From Thraustochytrium sp. TN22 (lineage: Eukaryota > Sar > Bigyra > Thraustochytrida > Thraustochytriidae): DNA of 64,000 bases. Each line of letters begins with the position of its first letter. Position 1 is the first letter of the stretch. The notes under the pieces were generated by a model that had not been told where the DNA came from, ran no database searches, and worked only from the letters and a program-made list of their open reading frames with translations. Of this stretch, positions 46,998 to 62,559 are shown piece by piece. Both the position numbers and the translations under genes were made by a program. The stretch spans positions 57,729 to 121,728 of the forward strand of contig JABLUY010000098.1 in NCBI GenBank assembly GCA_013306675.1. The letters run 5' to 3'.

Positions 46998-49937
46998 ATG
47001 GGCGCGGCGGCGCGGCGCGCGGCGCTGCTGGCCGCGGCCGGCGTGAGCGGGGCGGCGTGCGGGCTGCTGGACTTCGCGTGGGCGAGCCCAGCCTTTCCGC
47101 GCAGCGGCGACCCGGACGAGGCGCTGCAGGAGTTCTCCGCGGAGGACCGCGTCTGGAGGTACCTGGTGCTGGCGCTGTGCGGCGCGCAGGTGGCATCGGC
47201 AGGCGCGGCGCTGGCGGCGGTCGCGGCGGGCCACGGCCTTCGGGACGGCCTCGCCGAGGTGCACGCGCTGCTCGCCGGGTTCCTGGTCGCAGCCGTGCTC
47301 ATGTCGAATCGCGCGGTGGGCACGCGCTTCAACCGCTCGCTCGACTGGCAAGGACCCAACTGGTGCGTCACGCAGACGGCCTGTATCGCGAACCTGGTGC
47401 TCGCGCTGCTGGCGGCGCGCGAGCGCGAAGCCTCGCTGTCGGCCTCGCCGTCGCCCACGCCCAGGACCTTGCGCGCGCCGCTGCTTGTCCACGCCAACTT
47501 GAAAGAGCCGAGGGCGACGCCAGCGGCAGCAAGCCGCGCGGCCGTGGGCGCGGCGCTCTGCGGCGGCCTTAGCTTCATAGCCGCGGCCGTGGCACTGCTC
47601 GCGCTGGGCGTCTTCTTCTACATCGCGGAGCCCGCCACCGAGACCCTCGGCACGCTCGGCGCGCACGCCTCCTTTTTGGAATTCCAGTGCGCCAGCGGCT
47701 CCTTCGCCCTCTCCCCAGAGCTGCATGTGCAATGGGGGGCGGAGACGGGCTTTCGCATCGGGGCGCCGCTCCGCAACAGCGAGGACGAGGACGAGAACAA
47801 GGACGACCTTCAGGAGCAGGACCGTGCGCCGCTCTTCGCCTCGGCGACGGCCAGAACGAGCTTTTTGGTTGCGGCGCTGCGCGCGAACGAGACCTTGGAG
47901 GCAGCCAATCCGGGCGATGCCGGCACCTTCCTCGTCACGGACGTGCCAGGGCGGTTCTCGACGGAGCAAATCATCGAGCGCGTCGAGATCGAGACGGAGA
48001 CGCGCAGCATCACCTTTTACGGCACGCTGGTGTTTGGGCCAGCGCCGGCCGCGCGCGGGGGCGCGCTGCTTGAAGAAAGCGGCGACTCGCCGCTGGAGCG
48101 CGCCAACTTCTCCTTTCACATCGACGGCAGCGCAGCCGCGCGCGAGGGCGCTGCGGTCGTGCGCGTGCACGCGCGCGTGAGCGAGGGTGCCGCTACGGGC
48201 CGGCTGTACCTAGTGGCTGCCTCGGACGCCAAGGAGCAGATCTTTGGGCTCGGGGAGTCCTTCACCTTTATGGACCTCAAAGGCGGCGTCATCCCGGTGC
48301 TGGCGCGAGAGCAGGGCGTGGGCCGCGGGCTGGAGCCGCTGAGCTTCTTGCTCGGGCTCGCCGAAAGGCTGGGTCTCGCCGGCGCCGCCAACCAGGGCGG
48401 GTCCGCCGCGCGGACCACCTACACGGCCATCCCGCACGTGACAACCTCGGCGCTGCGCAGCCTGTGGCTGGACAATCGGGAGCTGGCGGTCATGGACTTT
48501 TCAGCGGACCAGCGCTTGAGCATTGAGGTGAACGCCAGCGAGCTGCGCGCCGGCTTCATCCAGGGCGACGACCCACTCACGCTCGTGGACGCCTACACGG
48601 AGGAGGTCTCGGGGCGCATGCGGGCGCTGCCGGCGTGGACCGGCCAGGGCGCCATCGTCGGCATGCAGGGCGGCCGCACCGCCGTCATGGACAAGCTGCG
48701 CACGCTGCTGGACGCCGGCGTGCCGGTGGCCGCCGTCTGGCTCCAGGACTGGGCCGGCCAGCGCGAGACGGCCACGGGCTCGCGCCTGCACTGGAATTGG
48801 GAAGTGGACCAGACGCGCTACCCGGACTGGTTTCACTGGACACGCCAGCTGCGCGACAACCTTGGCGTGCGCGTGCTCACCTACGTGAACCCCCACCTGA
48901 GCGAGGGCAGCCCACTGTTCGAGGAAGCGGCACGCCTCGACTGCCTCGTGCGGCGCGCCGGCGCGGTGCTTGTGCAGTGGAGCGCGACGCCGGACTTTCG
49001 CTTTGCCACCCTGGACCTCTTCAAGGACCAGTGCGCCGCCTGGTTCGTGGACCGCATGCGTGCCAACGTGCTGGGGCCCGAGCCGGACACGGCGCCGGCC
49101 GTGGCGGGCTGGATGGCCGATTTCGGCGAGGGCCTCCCGTTCGACGTTGGGCCCAACGCAAGCGCGCACAACGCCTTTCCCGAGCTCTGGGCCGCCGTCA
49201 ACGAGCGCATCGCGGCCGGGGAGGCGGTCTTCTTCACGCGATCCGCCTCCTTGCGCTCACCGGCGCACTCGCCGCTGCAGTGGATGGGCGACCAGCTGCC
49301 CACGTGGGACAGCCGCGATGGCCTCCACAGCGTCGTGGTGGCGCAGCTCGCGGCCGGCCTCTCGGGCCTCAGCCAGACGCACTCGGACCTCGGTGGCTTC
49401 ACCGTCCTGCGGCGCGGCCTACTCGCCTTTCGTCGCGGCGAGGAGCTCTATAAACGCTGGATGGAACACAGCGCGCTGGCAGACGACGTCTTTCGCTCGC
49501 ACGAGGGGCTGCAGCCGGAGTCCACCCTGCAGCCGTGGAATGCTTCGGTCGTGGCCCACTTTGGCCGCTTCGCACGCGTCCACGCTGCCCTGGCGCCGCG
49601 TCGCCTCGCCTTTCACGCGCGCTGGCCCGGTCGCCCGTGGGTGCAGAGCTTCTGGATGCGCCATCCGGCGGACGAGCGCGCGTCAAACCTCAAGACACAG
49701 TACTATCTCGGGGACGGCGATCTCCTCGTGTGTCCGGTTCTTGAACCTGGCGTGGACGTCGTCTCCTGCTATCTCCCAGCGGGCAACCGCACCTTTCACC
49801 ACGCCTTTGCCGACGCCCGCTTCGCACCGAGCCCATCTGGCCGCTTCGAGTCCTGCCCGGCCCGTCTTGGCTATCCGTGCGTGCTTGCAGCCGACGAGAT
49901 GGTCGCCGCCGCACTCCGGCGCGACTTCTTGGTATAA
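46998..49937 (+). CDS. Membrane-anchored GH31 glycosidase, sulfoquinovosidase-like
   Basis: This 979-residue protein has about five hydrophobic spans in its first 210 residues (about 8-28, 53-78, 88-104, 124-140, 180-210), then a GH31 catalytic region. Candidate catalytic residues are Asp708 in GWMADFGEG (nucleophile) and Asp765 in WMGDQLPTWD (acid/base). Residues matching the sulfonate-binding set of E. coli YihQ occur at the same spacing: Gln557 (GMQGG), Gln583 (LQDWAGQRE), Arg596 and Trp599 (GSRLHWNW), equivalent to Q262, Q288, R301 and W304. The fifth position, Tyr508 in YihQ, is Phe801 (HSDLGGFT). This points to hydrolysis of sulfoquinovosyl glycerol from plant or algal sulfolipid, or of a related acidic glycoside. 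The catalytic domain would lie on the lumenal or outer side of a membrane. Other GH31 alpha-glucosidases are the alternative. Confidence 0.85.
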   Translation: MGAAARRAALLAAAGVSGAACGLLDFAWASPAFPRSGDPDEALQEFSAEDRVWRYLVLALCGAQVASAGAALAAVAAGHGLRDGLAEVHALLAGFLVAAVLMSNRAVGTRFNRSLDWQGPNWCVTQTACIANLVLALLAAREREASLSASPSPTPRTLRAPLLVHANLKEPRATPAAASRAAVGAALCGGLSFIAAAVALLALGVFFYIAEPATETLGTLGAHASFLEFQCASGSFALSPELHVQWGAETGFRIGAPLRNSEDEDENKDDLQEQDRAPLFASATARTSFLVAALRANETLEAANPGDAGTFLVTDVPGRFSTEQIIERVEIETETRSITFYGTLVFGPAPAARGGALLEESGDSPLERANFSFHIDGSAAAREGAAVVRVHARVSEGAATGRLYLVAASDAKEQIFGLGESFTFMDLKGGVIPVLAREQGVGRGLEPLSFLLGLAERLGLAGAANQGGSAARTTYTAIPHVTTSALRSLWLDNRELAVMDFSADQRLSIEVNASELRAGFIQGDDPLTLVDAYTEEVSGRMRALPAWTGQGAIVGMQGGRTAVMDKLRTLLDAGVPVAAVWLQDWAGQRETATGSRLHWNWEVDQTRYPDWFHWTRQLRDNLGVRVLTYVNPHLSEGSPLFEEAARLDCLVRRAGAVLVQWSATPDFRFATLDLFKDQCAAWFVDRMRANVLGPEPDTAPAVAGWMADFGEGLPFDVGPNASAHNAFPELWAAVNERIAAGEAVFFTRSASLRSPAHSPLQWMGDQLPTWDSRDGLHSVVVAQLAAGLSGLSQTHSDLGGFTVLRRGLLAFRRGEELYKRWMEHSALADDVFRSHEGLQPESTLQPWNASVVAHFGRFARVHAALAPRRLAFHARWPGRPWVQSFWMRHPADERASNLKTQYYLGDGDLLVCPVLEPGVDVVSCYLPAGNRTFHHAFADARFAPSPSGRFESCPARLGYPCVLAADEMVAAALRRDFLV

Positions 49938-50248
49938 CCCTCTCTCAGGCTCTGATCTCATGATCACTCTCCCTGGCCCAGTGAGTCAGAGTCAATGAGC
50001 CAGATGAGTCAGTAAATGAACGAACGTGTGATGTTGGCCGAGTCTGATAATAGCGTGCGCCAGCTTTGCGCGCGGGAGGCGCACGCCCAAACCTGGCGGG
50101 CACGCGCGTTGCAAGGCGCAAGGCGCACGCCCACCATCCCCCCTCGTGGCCGGCGGCCCGGCGCCAGCGCCCTGGGCCGCCAGCGGCCAGCGTTTCCCTC
50201 GTGGGACATGCAAGCCACGGTGGCAAGCAAAATCTAATCTCGCCAATC
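49938..50248. other. Spacer between the GH31 and G8-domain genes
   Basis: 311 bases between same-strand genes. gagtcag-type words recur near 49980-50010, and the sequence turns GC-rich toward the next start. No gene was seen. Confidence 0.5.
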
Positions 50249-53200
50249 ATGGTGGGCAAGATACTGGTCATACGTGGCCTCGTGGCCACAAGCAGTATGA
50301 TTGTCGCCGCGTACGCGGCAGCCTGCACGGGCAGCACGGGCAGCATGCCGGCATATGCGGAGGACGACTTGGCGATGGAGACAAGCGGGCTGGTGGCCCT
50401 CGGCGAAGGCACAGAGGTGGCGACGCTGCGATATACGCCAAATGAGCCGCCCGTAAATTGGGACGCGAGCGAGGCGTGCCCACACGAGGCGAGCGGGCTA
50501 GTGGCGTGGGAGGACAGCAACACGTGGGCAAACTCGCCCACAGGCGTGCCGATGGACGGCGCCAATGTGACATTGCCCGAGGACACGCGTGTACTCGTTG
50601 GAGGGTGTTCCGTGGTGGACGGCACTGTATTCGGGTACATCACGGTGCCGGCGTCGTCGGAGCTCATCTTCGCGGACGAGGATATTGCCTTCGCGACGAC
50701 CGGCATCATGGTCCACGGCAAGCTGGTGATGGGCTCCGAGACTTGCCGCATCAAGAGCCAGATTGTGCTGACGCTGCACGGCGACCGGCCTGCCTCGCTG
50801 CCCGCGGAAGCGCTGTACAAGGGCATCGTGGCCGAGGGCGAGGGCCTGCTGGACCTGCACGGCGCCCTGTACCACCCCACATGGACGCGGCTCGCCGCGA
50901 CGGCCGCGCCCGGCGACACCGAGATCTTCTTGCAGCACCGCGTCAACTGGCAGCCCGGCCAGCGTATCGTGGTGGTGGCGACGGAGGTCAAGGATTCGCG
51001 CGACTGGCATCGCAACGAGGAGCGCACCGTGGCGGCCGTGGCGCTGCGCGGCGGCTTCTCGCGCGTGACGCTGACTGAGGCCCTCAACTACACGCACTAC
51101 GGCGGACGCGAATACCAGGGCGAGGTGGGCCTCCTCTCGCGCAACATCGTCATCCAGGGCGACGAGGCGTCCGAGCCCACGGACACGAGCGATGACGTGT
51201 GCTCGAGCGGATACTTTGGCACATACCCTTGCGAGGGCAGGCATCTGACCGGCTTTGGTGGGCACACGATGGCGGCCGGGCCGGAAGCCACGGCGCGTTT
51301 TGAGGGAGTCGAACTCTACCGCATGGGTCAGACCAACGTGTTGGCGCGGTACCCGTACCACCTGCACCTGGTGGACCAGGGCGGCGCGCGCTCGTACCTG
51401 AAGCACTCGAGCATGCACCACACCTTTTACCGGTGCGCCACGATCCACGGCACGGACAACACGCTCATGCGGGACAACGTTGCGTACGATGCAATCGGGC
51501 ATTGCTTCTACTCGGGCGAGGACGGCGTCGAGGAGAACAACACGCTCGCTTTCAACCTGGCCGCGCACGTGCACTTTATGGAGTACCCGCGGACCAGCTC
51601 GAATCAGTATATGGACGACGTTTCAAGCAGCGGCCAGCTGACGCAGCCGGCTGACACAACAGCGAGCGGCTTTTACATCACCAATGCGTACAACCGGTAC
51701 TATGGCAACGCGGCCTCGGGCGGGTACTCTGGGTTTGCAGTGGTGCGACTGCCGGCGCCCATTATGAACTTCCAGGGCGTGTCGGTGGAGGATGGCTACG
51801 CCCCGCACCAGCGGCCCTTCCTCGAGTTCGACGGCAACTCGTGCCACTCGTCCGGCTCTTGGTGGACGCGCGCATCTTGCGTCTACATTGGCGGCAACCT
51901 GGAGCACCCGAGCGCCAGCTCGAAGACGCTCGTGTACAACCCGGGCAGGTACACGACGCGCAAGACGTACTGCCCAGAGCTGGGCTCCAGCAGCGAACGC
52001 GACTGCCCACTGGTGCTCAACAACACCAAGGTGTTTTTGAGCAACTGGGGCTTAACGCATTGGGGCGCACGGTCCACGATCGACCGCTTTGAGGCACACA
52101 ATACGGTCCGCGCCATCGCCATCCTCGGCGAACACTCGGTGACAAACATGCTCACTGTGTGCCGTGTACCGTCACACGTACCGGAGCGCCTCGGCACGTC
52201 TTACATGCAGCGCCACTGGTTCGACAAATCCGTCGGGATCGAGTGGTACGACACGGGCCAGTACCATATCTTCGACGAAATCACGCTGCGCAACTGCGGC
52301 AACGCCTCCATGAACTGGCCCGTGTGGCGCACGCTCACGCACAGCGACCAGTACGTGCCGGGCCTGCTGCAGTGGACGCGAAACGTGCGCTACGAAAACG
52401 TGGACCGCAGTATCCTGATCCGGCCGTCCGTCAGCAACTACCTGTCCGAGTCCGGCTGGCTCAGCAGCTGGATGGATGCCGACGGCTCCGTCTGGGGCGC
52501 CGAGGACGGGTCAGCAGGGCCCCAAATCATCGGGTCGGCGCGCGGGGGCATTCGGTGGTGGCGCCTCGACGACGACTGCTCCTCGGACGACGACGGCTTG
52601 TGGTATGTCTGCTCCATGGATTCGCCGGGCAGCAGCCAGCCGCGTGGCGTGGCGAGCATCCGGCTCGCCTTTGACGAAGTTGCGCAGGACGGCGTGGGCG
52701 ACACGGTGTGCAGCTCTGGCAACGTGGAATGCCCGCGCCTGGGCTCCGTTGTGCACCTTGGCGTGGACGGCGATCCGGACGAGGTCGGCCTCCCGCTGAC
52801 GCCGAACACCTTCGTGTCGGGCCCGACCGGCGGACTCGGCTGGCTCATGCTCTTCGACCAGGGCAGCCCGGTTGATCTCACATTTCGGCGCATGCAGATC
52901 GACGAAGACCACCTCGTCCTCGTCGCGCTGCCGTATCCAGCGGATGCGACCTTTTCCATCAGCTACGAGGCCGCCTACTGGTGCAAGCCAGCCACGTACG
53001 AGTGCAGGCACAACTTCACCTCGGTGAGCTCGGTGGACCAGGTTGTTGCGGGCAACGGCGACGTCTTCTTCTTTGACGTCGAGCGGCGCTTGCTGTTTTT
53101 GCGTCTTGTACCGCAGCTTCAGGACCGCCTCGACTTCTCCCAGGCCCCGGCCTACGGCGCCATTGCCGACATGCCCTATTATGAGGCGAGTGGCATGCGC

Positions 53201-53551
53201 ATCGCCAAGATCAACTACCAAGCCACCGTGCAGATTTCCGTCTCGGGCTGTACGCCGAACGCGAACAACTCGCTCTACTGCACGCCGACCGAGTATGACA
53301 CGACAGGCATTTGCGAGGACTTTGGCTACGCCGCTGGCTCCGAGGTTGTGGCCTACGACTCGTGCAGCGAGCCGGTCGCACCAGAAGACGCGCCGACGAC
53401 GGCCGACGAAATCGCCTTGGAATTGCCCTTGGCTCTGGCTGGTGTCGCCCTGGCGGTCGTCTCCATCGCAGCGCTGGCCATTTACGTGATTCGTAGGCGT
53501 CGCCGTGAGGCGGCTCTCATTACGCTTGGCTCGCGCCGGCCCTCGCTCTGA
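50249..53551 (+). CDS. G8-domain, CEMIP/TMEM2-like type I membrane protein
   Basis: The protein has 1100 residues from MVGKILVIRG; a signal peptide covers about the first 26 (LVATSSMIVAAYAAAC). A G8 domain lies at about 91-215 (NTWANSPTGVPMDGANVTLP, then ILFADEDIAFATTGI-like strands). The following stretch, TWTRLAATAAPGDTEIFLQH then RVNWQPGQRIVVVATEV, is typical of CEMIP, TMEM2 and fibrocystin-like proteins. A long His/Asn-rich parallel beta-helix region follows (YPYHLHLVDQGGARSYLKHS, NNTLAFNLAAHVHFMEYP), with many cysteines suggesting disulfides. A single span at about 1055-1081 and a short Arg-rich tail (IRRRRREAAL) end the chain. CEMIP and TMEM2 cleave or bind hyaluronan in animals. In a protist the ligand is more likely another cell-surface polysaccharide. 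The ectodomain is extracellular. Confidence 0.8.
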   Translation: MVGKILVIRGLVATSSMIVAAYAAACTGSTGSMPAYAEDDLAMETSGLVALGEGTEVATLRYTPNEPPVNWDASEACPHEASGLVAWEDSNTWANSPTGVPMDGANVTLPEDTRVLVGGCSVVDGTVFGYITVPASSELIFADEDIAFATTGIMVHGKLVMGSETCRIKSQIVLTLHGDRPASLPAEALYKGIVAEGEGLLDLHGALYHPTWTRLAATAAPGDTEIFLQHRVNWQPGQRIVVVATEVKDSRDWHRNEERTVAAVALRGGFSRVTLTEALNYTHYGGREYQGEVGLLSRNIVIQGDEASEPTDTSDDVCSSGYFGTYPCEGRHLTGFGGHTMAAGPEATARFEGVELYRMGQTNVLARYPYHLHLVDQGGARSYLKHSSMHHTFYRCATIHGTDNTLMRDNVAYDAIGHCFYSGEDGVEENNTLAFNLAAHVHFMEYPRTSSNQYMDDVSSSGQLTQPADTTASGFYITNAYNRYYGNAASGGYSGFAVVRLPAPIMNFQGVSVEDGYAPHQRPFLEFDGNSCHSSGSWWTRASCVYIGGNLEHPSASSKTLVYNPGRYTTRKTYCPELGSSSERDCPLVLNNTKVFLSNWGLTHWGARSTIDRFEAHNTVRAIAILGEHSVTNMLTVCRVPSHVPERLGTSYMQRHWFDKSVGIEWYDTGQYHIFDEITLRNCGNASMNWPVWRTLTHSDQYVPGLLQWTRNVRYENVDRSILIRPSVSNYLSESGWLSSWMDADGSVWGAEDGSAGPQIIGSARGGIRWWRLDDDCSSDDDGLWYVCSMDSPGSSQPRGVASIRLAFDEVAQDGVGDTVCSSGNVECPRLGSVVHLGVDGDPDEVGLPLTPNTFVSGPTGGLGWLMLFDQGSPVDLTFRRMQIDEDHLVLVALPYPADATFSISYEAAYWCKPATYECRHNFTSVSSVDQVVAGNGDVFFFDVERRLLFLRLVPQLQDRLDFSQAPAYGAIADMPYYEASGMRIAKINYQATVQISVSGCTPNANNSLYCTPTEYDTTGICEDFGYAAGSEVVAYDSCSEPVAPEDAPTTADEIALELPLALAGVALAVVSIAALAIYVIRRRRREAALITLGSRRPSL

Positions 53552-55829: not shown

Positions 55830-57967
55830 TCAGGTTCTCTCGTCGACCAAGAAGGGCGCGAGCATGCGGAGGCTGGCGCGAAGCGAGAGGTTGCGCGCGC
55901 CGAGGGTTGCCGCCTGCGACGAGCGCATCGCGATGAGGTCCTCCTTGGAGAATCGAGTCGCCGCAGGCGGCGAACGCCCCTCCGCAGAAGTGTCCACGTT
56001 GTCCAAGGGCAGCCCGTGCTGGCGCGAGAGCTGCACACAGCTGCGGAGGACGCTATTCTCCTGCGCCAGCGCCTTGACGCTATCAAAGAGAGGCGCGTAT
56101 GTCTGGTTAAGGGCCAGCTCATGCAAGACCGCGCTCCCCACCGGCTCGATGGAGCCACCGTGCCTGCATGATTGACGCGCGCGACATTCGTCAGCTGTGA
56201 TTCGGTCTCGCCACCCGGGCCGAGCAACGTACCTCAGATCCGTGAGCGTGATGTTGCGCAGCAGCGCACGCGAGAAGGCCGGGAGGCTGGCCAACTCATG
56301 TTCGAGGCTTTGACGACAGCGCATCCATCAGCCCACACGTGCATATGAAAATGACATCCGCGAGAACAACTCACCTCAGAGTGGTCAGCGGGCACCTTCC
56401 GCTCTCCAGGGCTCTCGCCAGGGCCTCGGCACCGCCCGATTCGATCTCATTGTGGCAGAGGCTGTAGCGAATTTGGGGTGTCAGCTCAGCTCCAGAGCCC
56501 GCCATGGTCTTGCTTTGCACGGTGTCTATCCGCTCAACTCACAATAAAGTCTTCAGCGAGCACTTGCCCGCCACCAGCGCATGCGCCAGCGATTTGGCGC
56601 CATCGTCACCAACTTTGTTGAACGTGAGACTGATGGCCCCGGATCGTCAGCTCCTTGTTTTCCGCGCAAACGAGCGAGGGTAGAAACTCACAGGAGCGCC
56701 TCCAAAGAAGACTTGCCGCTCTCCAGAGCGCCGGCCAGCGAGTCTACACCCGCAGAGCCAACCTCGTTTGAGGTGAGTCTGTTTATTAAAAAAAACGATT
56801 GCCATGCCGTCAGCTCCCAGCGAACCAAGCGGTGCGCGCAAGAAGAGAAGCGACACTACTCACGTCAGCGTCCGGAGCTTGCTCTCGCCGCTCTCCAGGG
56901 CCATCCCCAGGGCTCCAGCACCTTTGTCGCCGATCTGGTTGGTCGCAAGGCTTTGTTTCGAAATGTGAGTGTAGGTGTGTGGGTGTGGGTGTCTCGTCAG
57001 CTCGTGCGCCACGGTGCTCCGAAGGAAACGCGCGGAACCTACTGCAGCGTCGTGAGATGGCACGCGCCGCTCGCCAAGGCCTCAGCCAGGGCCAGGGCAC
57101 CGCCATCGTCCACCTGGTTGACCGACAGCCTGCCTCGTTGTTGTCATGTTAGTGCGCGTGCGAACGAATTTTGCCAGCCAGCCAGGAACGGTGCAAATCA
57201 ACGTACTCTAGGGCCTCGAGTGAGGAACCGCCGCTCGCGAGGGCGTCCGCCAACGCAACGACGCCCACCGACCCGACGGCGCAGCGGGTCATGTCGAGAC
57301 TCTTGAGAGCGCACACGCCGCTCTCGAGCGCCCCCGCCAGCGAAGTTGCGCCTTCAGGACCGAGTTCGTTGGAGTCGAGCACCAGCGAGGTCAGCTTGCA
57401 GTGGCTGCTCTCGAGGGCTCGCGCCAGCTCCTCCGCGCCGTCCTTGCGAATGTCGTTCGCCGAAAGGACGAGCTTCGTCAGCGCGCACTGCCCGCTGCCA
57501 AGGGCGCGTCCCAGCGAGGCAGCGCCCTCGCAGCCGATCTCGCCAAACATCAGATCTAGGGATGTGAGCGAGCACTGACCGCTCTCCAGTGCCTGCGCCA
57601 GCGCCTCGGCGCCTTCAGGCCCGATTGCGGAACCCTCAAGGTTCAAAGCCGTAAGCATGCAGTGGCCACTCGCCAGGGCTCGGGCAAGCGAGACGGCGCC
57701 CTCCGGACCGATGTCATTCGACTCGAGGTTGAGCTCGGTGAGCATGCAACGCCCACTCTCGAGGACCCGCGCCAGTGCTTCGGCTCCTTGGGACGTGATT
57801 CTGTTGCCACGGAGATTAAGCGCCTTCAGCTCGCACCGGTCGCTTTGGAGCTCCTCGGCCAGGAGCTCGACACCTGCGTCGCCTAGGGCTTTGACGTGGA
57901 GCTCCGTGGCGCCCTCTCGGATCACCCGGACTGCGTCCTCTACGACACCGCGCACACGATCATCCAT
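55830..57967 (-). CDS. Leucine-rich-repeat (RNI/NLRC3-like) protein, eight exons
   Basis: The model begins at the ATG at 57967 (MDDRVRGVVEDAVRVIREGA). Exons are 57207-57967, 57043-57129, 56864-56950, 56692-56778, 56543-56629, 56375-56461, 56233-56307 and 55830-56163. All seven introns (62-92 bases) are GT-AG and interrupt codons after the second base. Five exons are exactly 87 nt and encode one 29-residue repeat each, for example LTSNEVGSAGVDSLAGALES. Exon 1 carries about eight more repeats of the same type (LNLRGNRITSQGAEALARVL). The joined product is 534 residues, ending in a non-repeat helical tail (FSKEDLIAMRSS, then LRMLAPFLVDERT). Ribonuclease-inhibitor-like repeats form a curved ligand-binding surface. 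No NACHT or signalling domain is present in this chain. A sensor role is inferred, since the family is shared with NLRC3-like receptors and RanGAP. Confidence 0.85.
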
Positions 57968-58566
57968 GGTAACACCTCGGGCTGGCTGGCGCGGGCCGCG
58001 CCGCTCCCACGCGAGCTGCGCCGGGTCGCCACGCGGAAGCGCAGGCTGCGCCGGAGCTGCACTGCGTCTGCGAGCGCGGTTTGGTCGCGTGGCGTGCACT
58101 GTCGTGCAGCGCTTGTCGTTGCAGGGGGGCGGGGGTACCACGGGCGGTACCCAACTCCGGTACCATAAGTACTATTCCTATTCCCTTGCATGCATTGTCT
58201 GACGGTTGTCTGCCACGGTCGCGATCGGTGTGAAGATCCCAACGCGTGCCACCAAGCTGAGAGAGGCGAAATAGAGTTCTGCGTTGTGGTGGTCCTCGTC
58301 CTTGTGCCAATTACTGTCGCCGCAGCCGCCGCCGCCGCCGCCGCCGCCACCGAGGCAGCGGCGCACGGCCAAGCGCGCGCGGCCAGCTCTGGCTTGACAG
58401 AGGTGAGTCGCGCAAGGCAAAGCCTGACCATCAGGCGCGGCAAGTGCGTGTCAGACTTGAGACTCGGAAGTCTTGCCTAGCCTGAGTTGCTCTCGATCCT
58501 GGTCCTCTTCACCATCGAAGGCCGCCACAAGCTTCGCTAAGTCTGAAATCGATTTGCGATTGGAAA
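57968..58566. other. Spacer between the LRR and TIR-NACHT-WD40 genes
   Basis: 599 bases holding three GGTACC words (58135-58163) upstream of the LRR start and a GCC run (58322-58348). A short frame on the plus strand here (58190-58480) is alanine- and valine-rich and not convincing. Confidence 0.5.
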
Positions 58567-61500
58567 CTATTCGCCTGCGCCCTTAATCTTGAGGATGTGT
58601 ACGACGCCGGAATGATCACCGACGACGATCGTTGTGCCCCGACGGACGCAACATGAAACTGTAGAATCCGTCATAAATCCCGCACGATCATCGCCGGACA
58701 TGATCTCGCGTGTCATCTTCGCCACATGAACTGGAATTGCGCGACGCGGACGGCCCATACTCGACCGCGCCTCCGCAACTTGCGCATCCACCTGCATGAA
58801 GTTCTCCAGGTCCCAGCCCACGACCTCGCCTCTCGAATCCCAGCTGGTGATGATGCCGTCGCCCACAGTCACGACCTCAACAGGCCGCCAGTGCCCCTCG
58901 AGCACGTGCAGCAGGCTGCCGGTGTGAGCGTCCCACACGCGCACCGTCTTGTCATACGACCCAGACACGATCCGGTCGCCGTCCAAAGCCACGCTCTTGA
59001 CGGCAGATGTGTGCCCCTCGAGCACGTGCAGCAGTTCGCCGGTGTGAGCGTCCCACACGCGCACCGTCTTGTCTGAAGACCCAGACACGATCCGGTCGCC
59101 GTCCAAAGCCACGCTGTTGACGTAATCAGTGTGCCCCTCGAGCACGTGCAGCATTTGGCCGGTGTGAGCGTCCCACACGCGCACCGTGTTGTCTGAAGAC
59201 CCAGACACGATCCGGTCGCCGTCCAAAGCCACGCTGTTGACGAATTCAGTGTGCCCCTCGAGCACGTGCAGCATTCGGCCGGTGTGAGCGTCCCACACGC
59301 GCACCGTGTGGTTAGTGCGCGTGTGGTTGGAAGAAAACAGACCGCCAATTGACACATGCACAATTCCGCCAGACCCAGACACGATTCGGTTGTCGTCCAG
59401 AGCCAGGCATTGAACACTTGAATTGTGCGCCTCGAGAACGCACTGCTGGTCGCCGGTGTGAGCGTCCCACACGCGCGCGGTCTTATCTTTGGACCCAGAA
59501 ACGATCCTGTCGCCGCCCAGAGCCAGGCCACTGGCCGGAGACGCGTGCCCCGCGAGAACGTGCTTCTCTCTCCTAACACGGGCGTCCCACACGCGCACCG
59601 TGCGGTCGTCAGATCCAGAAACGATCCGGCTGCCGTCGAACGCCACACTGCGAACGATGAACGTGTGCCCCTCGAAAGCGTGGAGCTGGACACCGGTTCG
59701 AGCGTCCCATATACGCATTGTCTTGTCCTGGGACCCCGACACGATTCGGTCGCCGTTCAAGGCCACACTGAAGACCACGTCGGTGTGTCCCTTGAGCAGG
59801 TACAGCTCTTCGCCGGTGGGAGCGTCCCAGACGCGCACTGTCTTGTCAAAAGACCCAGACACGACCCGGTCGCCGTCCAGAGCGACGCTTGTGACGGCGC
59901 CAGCGTGCCCCTCGAGTACGAGCAGCTGCTCGCCGGTCTGAGCATCCCACACGCGCGCCGTCCTGTCGTCGGAGGCAGAGACAATCCGGTCGCCCTCCAA
60001 AGTCACGTTGTTGACTTTGTCTACGTGGCCCTCGAGCACGTGCAGCTGATGGCCGGTACGGGCGTTCCACACGCGCACCGTGTTATCGTTCGAGCCTGAC
60101 GCGATCCGGTCGCCGTCCAGAGCCACGCCATTGACAGAGTGCGCGTGTCCCTCGAGAACGTGCAGTGGGTCGCCTGTGTGAGCGTCCCACACGCGCACCG
60201 TCCCGTCGACGGACCCAGACACGATCCGGTCGCCGACCAAGTCGACGCTGTTAACTTCTCTTGTGTGACCCCTGAGGACGTGGAGCAGGTCACTGGTGAA
60301 AGCGTCCCACACGAGCACCGTCAGGTCATCAGATCCGGACACGATGCGATCCATGTCCAGGGCAATGCCTCGGACACCGCCTGTGTGGAATCTGAGCATG
60401 TGCAGGAGCGAATCGCGAGGCGAGGCGAGGGAGAGCTTGACGGGGCAGAGCCACAGCTTTTGTGGCGGTCGGAGCGTGCGCCGCAGGGGGTGGTTGGGGT
60501 CATCGATGCGCGCGAGGACCTGGCTGGCGAGCTGATCCGGGTCCGCGGTGACGGCGAGGATCGCCATGCGAAGGAGTCGGGGCGTGTCGCTCCGCGCGTC
60601 GAGCTTGGCCCGGTGAGCGTCGCGGAGGACGCCGCGGACGAAGGCGTGGCGGTCGGCCGGCGCCGACTTGGTTGAGAGGACCTCGTACACCCAGTCGAAG
60701 TCGCCGAGCAGCCCGAGTGCCTTGTCCGTCTGGCCGCTCTCCGCGAGGTGGTATAGCACGTGCTGGAGAGCAAAGGTGCTGCAGTCGTCGAGGAGGACTT
60801 TGGCGATCGTGGCGTGGCCTCGGTCGCGGTCGACCAGGAGCTTTGGACCGGCCCGCGCTCCGTCAGTGAGAAAGTCGGCCATGGACTCGTGGATGAAACG
60901 CACGGTGGCGGCGTTCACGTCGAGGAGGTGCGCTGCGCCGACGGCAAGCAGAGATTCTGCGGCAAGGGGGTCGCGTTCGAGGATCCTGGCCGCGACACGG
61001 ATGGGCAAGGAGTCGCGCGCTGCGCACATGGCGCCGAGGAGGTCGGCGTAGATCTTCACGTTGCCTTGCAGCGGCCCGTCAAGCAGCCTCCCAAAGCACT
61101 TCCCGTACATGTCGTCGAGGCCCGTGGGAAGGATAGCGACCAGCTCGGCGGCTGTCAGGTTGCTCTTGCCGTTCTCCTTGAGCTGCCTGTGCAGCATGCC
61201 GGCGGACAAAAAGAGGCCCTGCGCGCTTTCCTCGAGCTGGGGGAGGGCCTCGTCAAGTTCTGCGTCGCTGGCCATGGAACCTTTTAGCTTGGCGCGAAGC
61301 GACTTGACGACGTCGGACCTGCCGCGTTCGTCGTCAAGCTCGAGGATGAGCGGGTCGTAGTGGGGCAGGCGCTCACGAATCTTGCCCCTGGGCCTGGAGG
61401 TGACGAGGAGGCCTAGCCAGCTGGGTGTGCTGCGGGTCCACTCCTGGCGAATGATGCGGAGAAGTGCGTCGTGCTGCTCGGGATCGGCCTCGTTCAGCGC

Positions 61501-62559
61501 ATCGAGCACCACGAGGATGCGCGTCGCGGGCTTGTCTACCTCTGAGCAAGGCCTGGCGATGATGCGCCTAAACAGCGTGAGCGGGTCCCTGAGGCTAGAT
61601 GTGACCTTGGCAAGCTCCCGTGTGAACTTTTTGTACAGGCCTGGGACGAACCCGGTGAGCTGGTTCGCGATGCTGTGAAGGCAGACGATCACGTTCATCG
61701 CCTGTACATCGTGGTGGCGGAAGAAGTGGACCGCGCCGATAACCCAAGGCGTTGAGGTACGGCCTTGGACAGGCGGCATGGTCTTTGCTGCGAAGCCAAG
61801 AATGCCGGCGTCGGCGCATAACTTGGCAACACCGACGGACTTGCCGACGCCAGCCGGCCCGAGAACGGCCATGATGCGCGAGCGCCAGTCAAACTCGTGG
61901 ACCCAGTCGTTGACCTCGGCGAGGAACCAGAGGCGGGTCCCGGCCTCGTACTGGAGCGCCTTCTTGCGGCCCTCCGCGGCAGCATCGTAGCCAAGTCGGA
62001 ATGGAGGCGGACCCATGGGGCAAATTGGGCGGACGTCCACGAAAGGGCGTGCGAAGACTTTTCCTGAGATGAGGCCCGCGAGCGCACGCATGGAAGTGTC
62101 GAAGGCTGCATCCGTCTCATGGTGATGGTAGACTTGGCGTTGGAAGATCATGAGAACGACATTGTCCCGCGCGCTCTCGCGCGGCACGTCCTCCTCCATC
62201 ACCATGGCAAGCATCTTGTTGGGCTTTTCAAGACCTGCGTACGCGAACTCCCTCTGGCAGCTCTCCGTCGAGTCCCCGCAATTGACGGCCTCATAGTAGC
62301 CTTTGGTCAGGCATACCAGAAAGACGTTGCACGCGTCGATTTTCTTGTTCGTACGGCTGCAGTTCGCCTGCTGCGGGTCACGGTCGAGCACCATGACGAT
62401 GCCGAGCTTTGGATTTTGGGAAAACCAAGTCGCAATCCGTTCCAGGCGTCGCACCACGCTGCGCCCCTGCTCGTCCGGGGCCCGCCTGTACGACATGAAG
62501 ACGTTCACCAGCTCGCGATCGCCGCGGGCGTCCGGCGGCTCGCCGCGCTCGGTGATCAT
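58567..62559 (-). CDS. TIR-NACHT-WD40 STAND receptor-like protein
   Basis: The protein has 1330 residues, starting at MITERGEPPDARGD, the first ATG of the frame. A TIR-like domain spans about 16-140 (VNVFMSYRRAPDE, then VFLVCLTKGYYEA). Glu104 in SCQREFAYAG sits where NAD-cleaving TIR domains have their catalytic glutamate. A NACHT domain follows, with Walker A GPAGVGKS (234-241), Walker B ILVVLDALNEAD (348-359) and the sensor-1-like LLVTSRPRGK (384-393). Helical sequence follows, including FIHESMADFL. From about 720 to 1290 there are 13-14 WD40 repeats of 40 residues (core VALDGDRIVSGSSDKTVRVW), enough for two seven-bladed propellers. STAND proteins oligomerise after ligand binding. With TIR at the front, the likely output is NAD cleavage or signalling; the ligand is unknown. 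Repeat 9 carries an extra insert of about 13 residues. Confidence 0.9.
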   Translation of the reverse strand: MITERGEPPDARGDRELVNVFMSYRRAPDEQGRSVVRRLERIATWFSQNPKLGIVMVLDRDPQQANCSRTNKKIDACNVFLVCLTKGYYEAVNCGDSTESCQREFAYAGLEKPNKMLAMVMEEDVPRESARDNVVLMIFQRQVYHHHETDAAFDTSMRALAGLISGKVFARPFVDVRPICPMGPPPFRLGYDAAAEGRKKALQYEAGTRLWFLAEVNDWVHEFDWRSRIMAVLGPAGVGKSVGVAKLCADAGILGFAAKTMPPVQGRTSTPWVIGAVHFFRHHDVQAMNVIVCLHSIANQLTGFVPGLYKKFTRELAKVTSSLRDPLTLFRRIIARPCSEVDKPATRILVVLDALNEADPEQHDALLRIIRQEWTRSTPSWLGLLVTSRPRGKIRERLPHYDPLILELDDERGRSDVVKSLRAKLKGSMASDAELDEALPQLEESAQGLFLSAGMLHRQLKENGKSNLTAAELVAILPTGLDDMYGKCFGRLLDGPLQGNVKIYADLLGAMCAARDSLPIRVAARILERDPLAAESLLAVGAAHLLDVNAATVRFIHESMADFLTDGARAGPKLLVDRDRGHATIAKVLLDDCSTFALQHVLYHLAESGQTDKALGLLGDFDWVYEVLSTKSAPADRHAFVRGVLRDAHRAKLDARSDTPRLLRMAILAVTADPDQLASQVLARIDDPNHPLRRTLRPPQKLWLCPVKLSLASPRDSLLHMLRFHTGGVRGIALDMDRIVSGSDDLTVLVWDAFTSDLLHVLRGHTREVNSVDLVGDRIVSGSVDGTVRVWDAHTGDPLHVLEGHAHSVNGVALDGDRIASGSNDNTVRVWNARTGHQLHVLEGHVDKVNNVTLEGDRIVSASDDRTARVWDAQTGEQLLVLEGHAGAVTSVALDGDRVVSGSFDKTVRVWDAPTGEELYLLKGHTDVVFSVALNGDRIVSGSQDKTMRIWDARTGVQLHAFEGHTFIVRSVAFDGSRIVSGSDDRTVRVWDARVRREKHVLAGHASPASGLALGGDRIVSGSKDKTARVWDAHTGDQQCVLEAHNSSVQCLALDDNRIVSGSGGIVHVSIGGLFSSNHTRTNHTVRVWDAHTGRMLHVLEGHTEFVNSVALDGDRIVSGSSDNTVRVWDAHTGQMLHVLEGHTDYVNSVALDGDRIVSGSSDKTVRVWDAHTGELLHVLEGHTSAVKSVALDGDRIVSGSYDKTVRVWDAHTGSLLHVLEGHWRPVEVVTVGDGIITSWDSRGEVVGWDLENFMQVDAQVAEARSSMGRPRRAIPVHVAKMTREIMSGDDRAGFMTDSTVSCCVRRGTTIVVGDHSGVVHILKIKGAGE
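58880..60380. repeat. 120-bp tandem repeats encoding WD40 units
   Basis: Units of 120 bp (40 codons) repeat through the 3' half of the NACHT gene. The phrase ggtgtgagcgtcccacacgc recurs at exactly 120-bp spacing at 58921, 59041, 59161 and 59281. The first four plus-strand units (C-terminal repeats) are nearly identical in DNA; later ones diverge. Confidence 0.95.

Follow-up and report, generated by a model that had tools for sequence, protein, structure and literature searches.

NACHT ATPases joined to arrays of near-identical WD40 repeats, with exchange between paralogues and variation on the contact face, characterize the HNWD-type proteins, and it is from filamentous fungi, where hyphal fusion demands recognition of self and non-self, that highly identical, diversifying repeat sensors of NOD-like receptors (NLRs) are best known (PMC4986451, PMC12222747). 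NACHT-WD40 proteins are also known in Chlamydomonas and Nostoc (PMC4773052). The window analyzed here, a stretch of 64,000 nucleotides from Thraustochytrium sp. TN22 (contig JABLUY010000098.1, positions 57,729 to 121,728), encodes a protein with the Pfam domain order TIR_2, NPHP3_N, NACHT and WD40 from the N- to the C-terminus. A first-pass annotation had proposed a TIR-like domain, NACHT and WD40 in one chain without stating the strand; the layout is borne out by Pfam, and the gene lies on the minus strand (Table 1). We use P0001 as its working name and C numbers for contigs or loci of the same genome. P0001 is probably a cytosolic NLR-type non-self receptor, a member of the signal transduction ATPases with numerous domains (STAND), which belongs to a large diversifying family and would signal via a TIR NAD+ hydrolase (NADase). 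The finding concerns the family more than the single gene and is a real and striking feature.

The family was surveyed in one assembly of the organism's own genome (37.9 Mb, 453 contigs), in which 35 of 278 candidates from the search with P0001 were scored, and all family counts are minima. At least 129 matches to P0001 are present, and among the loci fetched, at least 34 frame pieces contain no fewer than three WD40 units of this type, with a total of 367 unit matches when partial ones are counted. A TIR match, a NACHT match and WD40 units are combined in at least 21 frames, P0001 included, such that the family has the tripartite layout of effector, STAND ATPase and repeat sensor; among these frames, the one at C77 has an in-frame stop within its array and the one at C428 ends at a contig end. 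Within arrays, the mean nucleotide identity of units is 0.96 in C243, 0.95 in C428 and C283, 0.88 in C422 and 0.68 in P0001 (computed without units that carry insertions or two or more gaps; the P0001 figure includes its out-of-register unit 9), and mean amino acid identity amounts to 0.934 in C243, 0.923 in C428 and 0.905 in C283. Several units are identical in both C243 and C283. The units of a single HNWD gene share 80-100% identity, a range that is reached by C243, C428, C283 and units 10-12 of P0001 but not by the P0001 array as a whole with its amino acid mean of 60%. Among the top-ranked results of a literature search, no protist TIR-NACHT-WD40 family with near-identical repeats appeared.

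The differences between units are not spread uniformly along the repeat but concentrated at five positions. Amino acid entropy, computed over 15 arrays with 121 distinct units (P0001 unit 9 kept in although out of register), peaks at unit position 5 (3.7 bits), followed by positions 21 (3.6), 7 (3.4), 23 (3.0) and 4 (2.8), while the next tier, formed by positions 35, 34, 31 and 12, lies at about 2 bits. Among close pairs, that is units of the same array with at least 85% nucleotide identity (112 pairs, 10 arrays), positions 4, 5, 7, 21 and 23 take 556 of 793 amino acid changes (~70%), and the ratio of nonsynonymous to synonymous change (dN/dS, a pooled Nei-Gojobori count over pairs that are not independent) is 2.15 at these positions and 0.28 elsewhere. 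Bootstrapping over arrays places the five-position value between 1.36 and 3.46, with 1 or less in 0.05% of 2000 resamples. In 200 split-half rounds, with the positions selected from one half of the arrays and evaluated on the remaining half so as to avoid circularity, the median was 2.2 (5-95%, 1.25-3.5) against 0.28 for the rest, and the 27 adjacent close pairs yield 2.04 versus 0.28. For single arrays, close pairs give 6.4 in C283, 2.7 in C277, 2.3 in C242, 2.0 in P0001 and about 1.3 in C243, C422 and C398; C428 shows no synonymous change and the C216 fragment gives no number. When all pairs are used, dN/dS at the remaining positions stays between 0.14 and 0.67 in 28 of 28 arrays. Adenine-targeted mutagenesis, as known for diversity-generating retroelements, was considered as a source of the variation and rejected, all four bases occurring at 14 of the 15 places of the five variable codons.

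In the alignment with FBXW7 (Cdc4), the variable positions coincide with a face known to contact the ligand. FBXW7 has 40-residue units that align to units 11-12 of P0001 without gaps, and all seven residues named as its phosphodegron contacts (PMC10486803) map onto unit positions 4, 5, 7, 21 and 23, although this protein is the adaptor of an E3 ligase, encoded by a single gene and free of TIR and NACHT domains. In fungal HNWD proteins the variable codons are 10, 11, 12, 14, 30, 32 and 39 of 42-residue units (PMC12222747). Transferred to the 40-residue register, a step inferred from unit spacing, this set falls on positions 3, 4, 5, 7, 21, 23 and 30 and gives a dN/dS of 1.63 versus 0.29 in close pairs, as expected for diversifying selection on ligand-face codons. 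The earlier proposal that variation is focused on the binding surface as in HNWD proteins is supported, and far more strongly across the family than in P0001 alone.

P0001 itself carries 12 canonical 40-residue WD40 units starting at residue 724, with a mean identity between units of 67.6% at the nucleotide and 60% at the amino acid level, values lowered by an insert that puts unit 9 out of register. The C-terminal cap adds a divergent blade that is clear and perhaps one or two that are cryptic, so that the 13-14 repeats originally counted are about right; the cap is conserved in many paralogues, and residues ~1085-1330, which include the last WD40 units, find paralogue matches at 41-72% amino acid identity. 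The array had been described as one of near-identical repeats, which holds for units 10-12, with top pair values of 95.8% (nucleotides) and 87.5% (amino acids), and by eye for the end of unit 9, but not for the rest. As had been noticed, units 10-12 differ from each other at few positions, namely, at the amino acid level, in 7 of 40 columns (4, 5, 7, 21, 23, 34 and 35). All five hypervariable (HV) columns of the family are among them (hypergeometric P ~3e-5, a value with slight circularity, as P0001 contributed to the units from which the set was defined; P ~6e-4 for the set from the HNWD literature). The array probably forms two propellers, with a split of perhaps 8+6/7 or perhaps 7+7 blades: in the WD40 model (pLDDT, the predicted local distance difference test, 66; pTM, the predicted template modelling score, 0.52) units 1-8 resemble eight-bladed propellers, and the remainder is poorly modelled.

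The 54-nucleotide excess of unit 9 was examined as a possible intron and this was rejected: it is in frame, has by eye no GT...AG borders, and the corresponding place in other arrays has 5-9 additional residues, too few for an intron. The insert lies directly after the SGS motif, beside variable position 21, and affects one or two units per array, the position in the array differing; it comprises 18 residues in P0001 and 5-9 in units of C243, C283, C398, C422, C331, C242, C445 and the C216 fragment, in a listing that contains some artefacts of the search pattern. It recurs as if a variant unit moved about.

Units 10-12 are recent arrivals: they descend from units resembling those at other loci or were overwritten by such units. 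The average share of four-fold degenerate framework sites that they have in common with other arrays is 0.98 for C243, 0.98 for C283, 0.96 for C422, 0.90 for C398, 0.86 for C242 and 0.77 for C216, whereas the older part of the P0001 array (units 1-8, of which seven were used) reaches 0.59-0.69 with the same six arrays. The four-fold identity of the P0001 NACHT region to those of C422, C283 and C243 is only 0.63-0.67; units 10-12 are therefore younger than the gene that carries them. Likewise, the best units of C242 agree with those of five members at 0.88-0.92 of nucleotides and its NACHT with theirs at 0.55-0.58, and such high identity of units despite low identity of the NACHT regions means that repeats have moved between loci. 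P0001 shows this exchange in progress, older divergent units standing beside three units common to other loci. The closest framework match lies outside the unit's own array for 139 of 230 units and inside it for 44, with ties for the other 47. Homogenization is thus not mainly a process within genes, and of the internal shuffling originally proposed, the exchange of repeats stands while its restriction to the array does not. TIR domains look swapped between loci, too: near-sister NACHT regions go with unlike TIRs in C12/C77 (NACHT identity 0.84, TIR 0.37) and C243/C422 (0.83 and 0.43), while C12/C283 has 0.82 and 0.71.

Arrays of this kind are reported to be unreliable in short-read assemblies (PMC12222747), and at least 10 of the 906 contig ends lie inside such WD40 arrays (C406, C32, C362, C34, C448, C96, C42, C331, C216 and C428), where about one is expected. 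It follows from arrays broken in this way that there are more members than counted and that repeat numbers are not to be trusted. It is nevertheless most improbable that the pattern as such reflects near-identical units collapsed or mis-joined during assembly: units 10-12 differ from each other and P0001 lies away from a contig end, even if repeat numbers stay uncertain, and an assembly error would not direct the differences to the five contact positions. With the exception of C428, the ten contig ends listed carry 3' parts of further receptor genes. Isolated array pieces were examined as possible dispersed donor cassettes, a reading that found no support; seven of the 14 pieces fetched are 3' ends of genes cut by contig ends (C406, C32, C362, C34, C448, C96 and C42), six internal ones (C36, C379, C205, C18, C163 and C28) look truncated or frameshifted, and the piece at C422:80129-80387, which lies past an unread base on the downstream side of the C422 gene, is the end of another array.

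The TIR domains of the family point to a putative catalytic function. At E 0.001, eighteen of 20 paralogous TIRs match TIR_2 (best 2e-13) and two match DUF4062. In a MAFFT alignment of 21 TIRs, P0001 included, Glu104, situated in SCQREFAYAG, is invariant (21/21), and in a version of 20 TIRs with C332 left out (A1) I74, Y88 and E104 are the sole invariant columns. Glu104, which falls inside the TIR_2 match, is by sequence and spacing the candidate counterpart of the known catalytic glutamate of RPS4 and SARM1 (after betaC, at the start of alphaC). The suggestion that a glutamate occupies the NADase position thus agrees with the sequence as far as invariance and spacing go, and nothing in the alignment moves Glu104 off the presumed site. 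The A1 profile finds weak matches to SEFIR, RPS4 and Cat1 TIR structures (E 0.003-0.011); the same list holds a designed helical repeat (0.005) and centrins (~0.4), presumably by chance. The start of the domain reads FMSYRR in P0001, while SHKW is found in 10 of the 21 aligned TIRs and the others vary.

Several results weigh against the receptor reading. Concerning selection, the counting model is not recombination-aware, C331 falls to 0.89 among close pairs, and with all pairs dN/dS at the HV positions exceeds 1 in 16 of 28 arrays but is below 1 in seven (P0001 0.76, C77 0.49), four arrays being not computable and one lacking synonymous change. Together with the non-independence of pairs, these values speak for the view that any WD40 unit is least constrained at just these five residues, which drift neutrally while homogenization proceeds without adaptive meaning; in ordinary propellers, FBXW7 among them, blades likewise differ at these positions. 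Drift, however, predicts a ratio of about 1, whereas the close pairs exceed it over their whole bootstrap range, their HV dN is ~5.9 times the framework dS (4.6-8.8), and the split-half and adjacent-pair versions agree with the elevated value. Close pairs are trusted more because, once all pairs are taken, the variable codons are nearly saturated for synonymous change, and we regard neutral drift as quite unlikely. Furthermore, near-identity in P0001 is confined to three of 12 units, and its TIR matches TIR_2 (residues 20-126) with E=5e-4 and 21 bits, under the Pfam cut-off of 28 bits. This TIR is also missing from the genome-wide TIR_2 scan, so that the model counts it as weak, and its assignment leans on the paralogues. 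The single-sequence AlphaFold2 model of the TIR-NACHT part is unusable (pLDDT 37.5).

A last point of this kind concerns the ATPase. P0001 possesses a NACHT-type nucleotide-binding domain (NPHP3_N, E=9e-15; NACHT, E=7e-4, under its own cut-off), for which intact Walker A and B motifs had been stated. This is correct for Walker A, but Walker B reads LDALNE with N356 in place of the aspartate that is present in 18 of 18 other members having letters there, a change that may impair hydrolysis. With N356 found in 1 of 19 aligned members, the altered SYRR at the TIR start and in-frame stops in the relatives C77 and C149, P0001 might be taken for a decaying or regulatory member of an otherwise working receptor family. 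We consider this unlikely: the frame of 1330 codons is intact, Glu104, Walker A, D353 and E357 are kept, and the NACHT dN/dS of P0001 against eight paralogues (0.38-0.49) is like that of pairs among other members (0.28-0.56), so that P0001 is under constraint and not a freely drifting pseudogene in spite of N356. The stops in C77 (L007) and C149 (L021) suggest birth and death of genes within the family. In a search with the NACHT alignment A2, viral contigs gave no relative and prokaryote genomes gave two weak ones (28-30%). These two (L055 and L056) lie on contigs of metagenome-assembled genomes labelled Burkholderiales and Acetobacteraceae and may be bacterial STANDs or mis-binned eukaryote contigs.

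Other proteins share parts of the layout and bear on the function. The APAF-1 apoptosome combines a STAND ATPase with two WD40 propellers, yet it has a CARD instead of a TIR domain, a single conserved gene and fixed propellers. TEP1 also contains NACHT and WD40, and its DUF4062, also termed Swarozyc, is a TIR-like NADase domain (PMC13174449). As STAND-WD40 and TIR-like-NACHT-WD40 arrangements are known from APAF-1 and TEP1, P0001 could be a non-immune sensor of this kind, serving developmental cell death, vault or stress signalling. We judge this to be very unlikely. Whereas DUF4062 characterizes TEP1, the P0001 family leans toward TIR_2 and is diversifying; 18 of 20 members match TIR_2 and just two DUF4062, the overlap of the two sets not being shown. 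For P0001 itself DUF4062 gives E=0.12 and 13 bits (cut-off 24.7), and TIR_2 fits better, though also below its cut-off; judged by these scores, P0001 is not of the TEP1 type. DUF4062 has six matches elsewhere in the genome, three of them beside NPHP3_N, and at least 21 diversifying copies with exchanged repeats would be unexpected of a housekeeping sensor. The three NPHP3_N-adjoining cases (C332:16370-17785, C142:5431-6930 and C111:271639-273009) form a TEP1-like set separate from the P0001 family.

Among receptors, the closest parallel is HNWD (HET-NACHT-WD40; het-e, het-d and het-r of Podospora anserina), with which the P0001 family shares NACHT, arrays whose units are highly identical and are exchanged both inside a gene and among paralogues, variation of ligand-face codons (here 4, 5, 7, 21 and 23, weakly 3) and divergent C-terminal blades. 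It differs in its TIR_2 N-terminus instead of HET, in units of 40 instead of 42 residues and in its non-fungal host; position 39 is variable in HNWD whereas the equivalent position 30 is not, the P0001 array mixes old and new units, and an incompatibility reaction is known for HNWD only. HET was found neither among 20 members (E 0.001) nor in the P0001 N-terminus (E up to 5). P0001 presumably works like an HNWD-type NLR, but with TIR_2 at its N-terminus it does not belong to the HNWD proteins. A possible relationship of HET to TIR has been put forward (PMC4986451), which would make the TIR effector a distant cousin of HET. The Chlamydomonas and cyanobacterial proteins resemble P0001 as microbial proteins with NACHT and C-terminal WD40, but the account given of them mentions neither TIR nor a family diversifying at the contact face (PMC4773052). 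Near-identical WD40 repeats as such also occur in the repetitive propeller 2ymu, a protein of bacterial origin. Plant TIR-NB-LRR (TNL) receptors combine, like the P0001 family, a TIR effector with catalytic glutamate (putative in P0001), a STAND ATPase and a diversifying repeat sensor, but use NB-ARC and leucine-rich repeats (LRRs) where P0001 has NACHT/NPHP3_N and WD40.

On the reading as a non-self receptor, NACHT would keep the protein inactive in the resting state until the WD40 array binds a non-self or modified-self protein via unit positions 4, 5, 7, 21 and 23. Binding would cause NACHT to oligomerize and bring the TIR domains together, and these could then cleave NAD+ via Glu104, with signalling or the death of an infected or incompatible cell as the outcome. 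Specificities would be renewed as duplication of units within arrays and exchange between loci keep the scaffold uniform, while selection favors new residues at the five contact positions. More tentatively, and as a possibility to which we give less than even weight, receptor diversification in a probably single-celled stramenopile may be driven by gene conversion, dozens of dispersed TIR-NACHT-WD40 loci trading WD40 units, loop-insert units and TIR domains with mainly five contact residues per unit left free; it may serve virus sensing or self/non-self recognition between cells, the strategy of HNWD having evolved independently of fungi. Two virus types are named for thraustochytrids (PMC4512727). 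An HNWD-like pattern with a TIR effector in an apparently heterotrophic protist suggests that this strategy is not bound to fungi or hyphal fusion, and the use of such receptors by a protist cell would become a directly testable question.

The host is likely a thraustochytrid-like heterotroph and probably single-celled. No match to light-harvesting proteins was obtained in its genome, and PfaD occurs twice, nearly complete each time, in open frames of 2083 and 1719 amino acids, as in the subunits of the polyunsaturated fatty acid synthase of thraustochytrids. A 5.8S rRNA search found no match, and comparison of the flippase encoded in the window with PDB entries said nothing about the host; the sole match of a Pfam scan beside PfaD was a sub-domain within the PfaD match.

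Table 1. Features of P0001, with positions in the window
Feature	Position	Strand	Basis or remark
Whole reading frame of P0001	58567..62559	minus	1330 aa (amino acids) + stop; intron-free reading possible
TIR domain, residues ~19-165	62065..62505	minus	TIR_2 match and paralogue TIRs
Glu104 codon, putative NADase catalytic residue	62248..62250	minus	invariance across aligned TIRs
NPHP3_N/NACHT nucleotide-binding core, residues 207-389	61393..61941	minus	NPHP3_N E=9.4e-15
Walker A GPAGVGKS, residues 234-241	61837..61860	minus	sequence alignment
Walker B LVVLDALNEADPE with N356	61477..61515	minus	D at the N356 position in 18/18 other aligned members
Helical/winged-helix-like linker NACHT-WD40, residues 390-723	60391..61392	minus	weak TANC1 and APAF-1 matches
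WD40 units 1-8, older, divergent; predicted first propeller	59431..60390	minus	
WD40 unit 9 with additional ~18-aa loop following SGS (loop ~59311-59370)	59257..59430	minus	
WD40 units 10-12, near-identical; variable at unit positions 4, 5, 7, 21, 23, also 34, 35	58897..59256	minus	
C-terminal cap, 109 aa, residues 1222-1330	58570..58896	minus	

Upstream, the P0001 frame is open as far as 62883, and its earliest ATG is at 62559. The linker matches the TANC1 winged helix weakly (E=0.15) and, with the family profile, APAF-1 (E=0.005); it ends in SLLHMLR, a presumed closing strand assigned by eye. Elsewhere in the genome, C242:26720-32698 (L013/L050) is a single open frame of ~2000 amino acids, apparently with two tandem TIR/NACHT sets ahead of its WD40 array. 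The whole genome holds 46 matches to NPHP3_N and 123 to TIR_2, 114 of the latter above the Pfam cut-off; the TIR_2 matches far exceed the TIR-NACHT-WD40 family, and many belong to open frames whose length ranges from several hundred to more than 1000 amino acids. In the window, a neighboring gene with leucine-rich repeats (LRR_6) occupies 57149-58141 on the minus strand, and a G8/CEMIP beta-helix protein is encoded on the plus strand at 50066-53551, adjoining a GH31 glycosidase (46998-49937).

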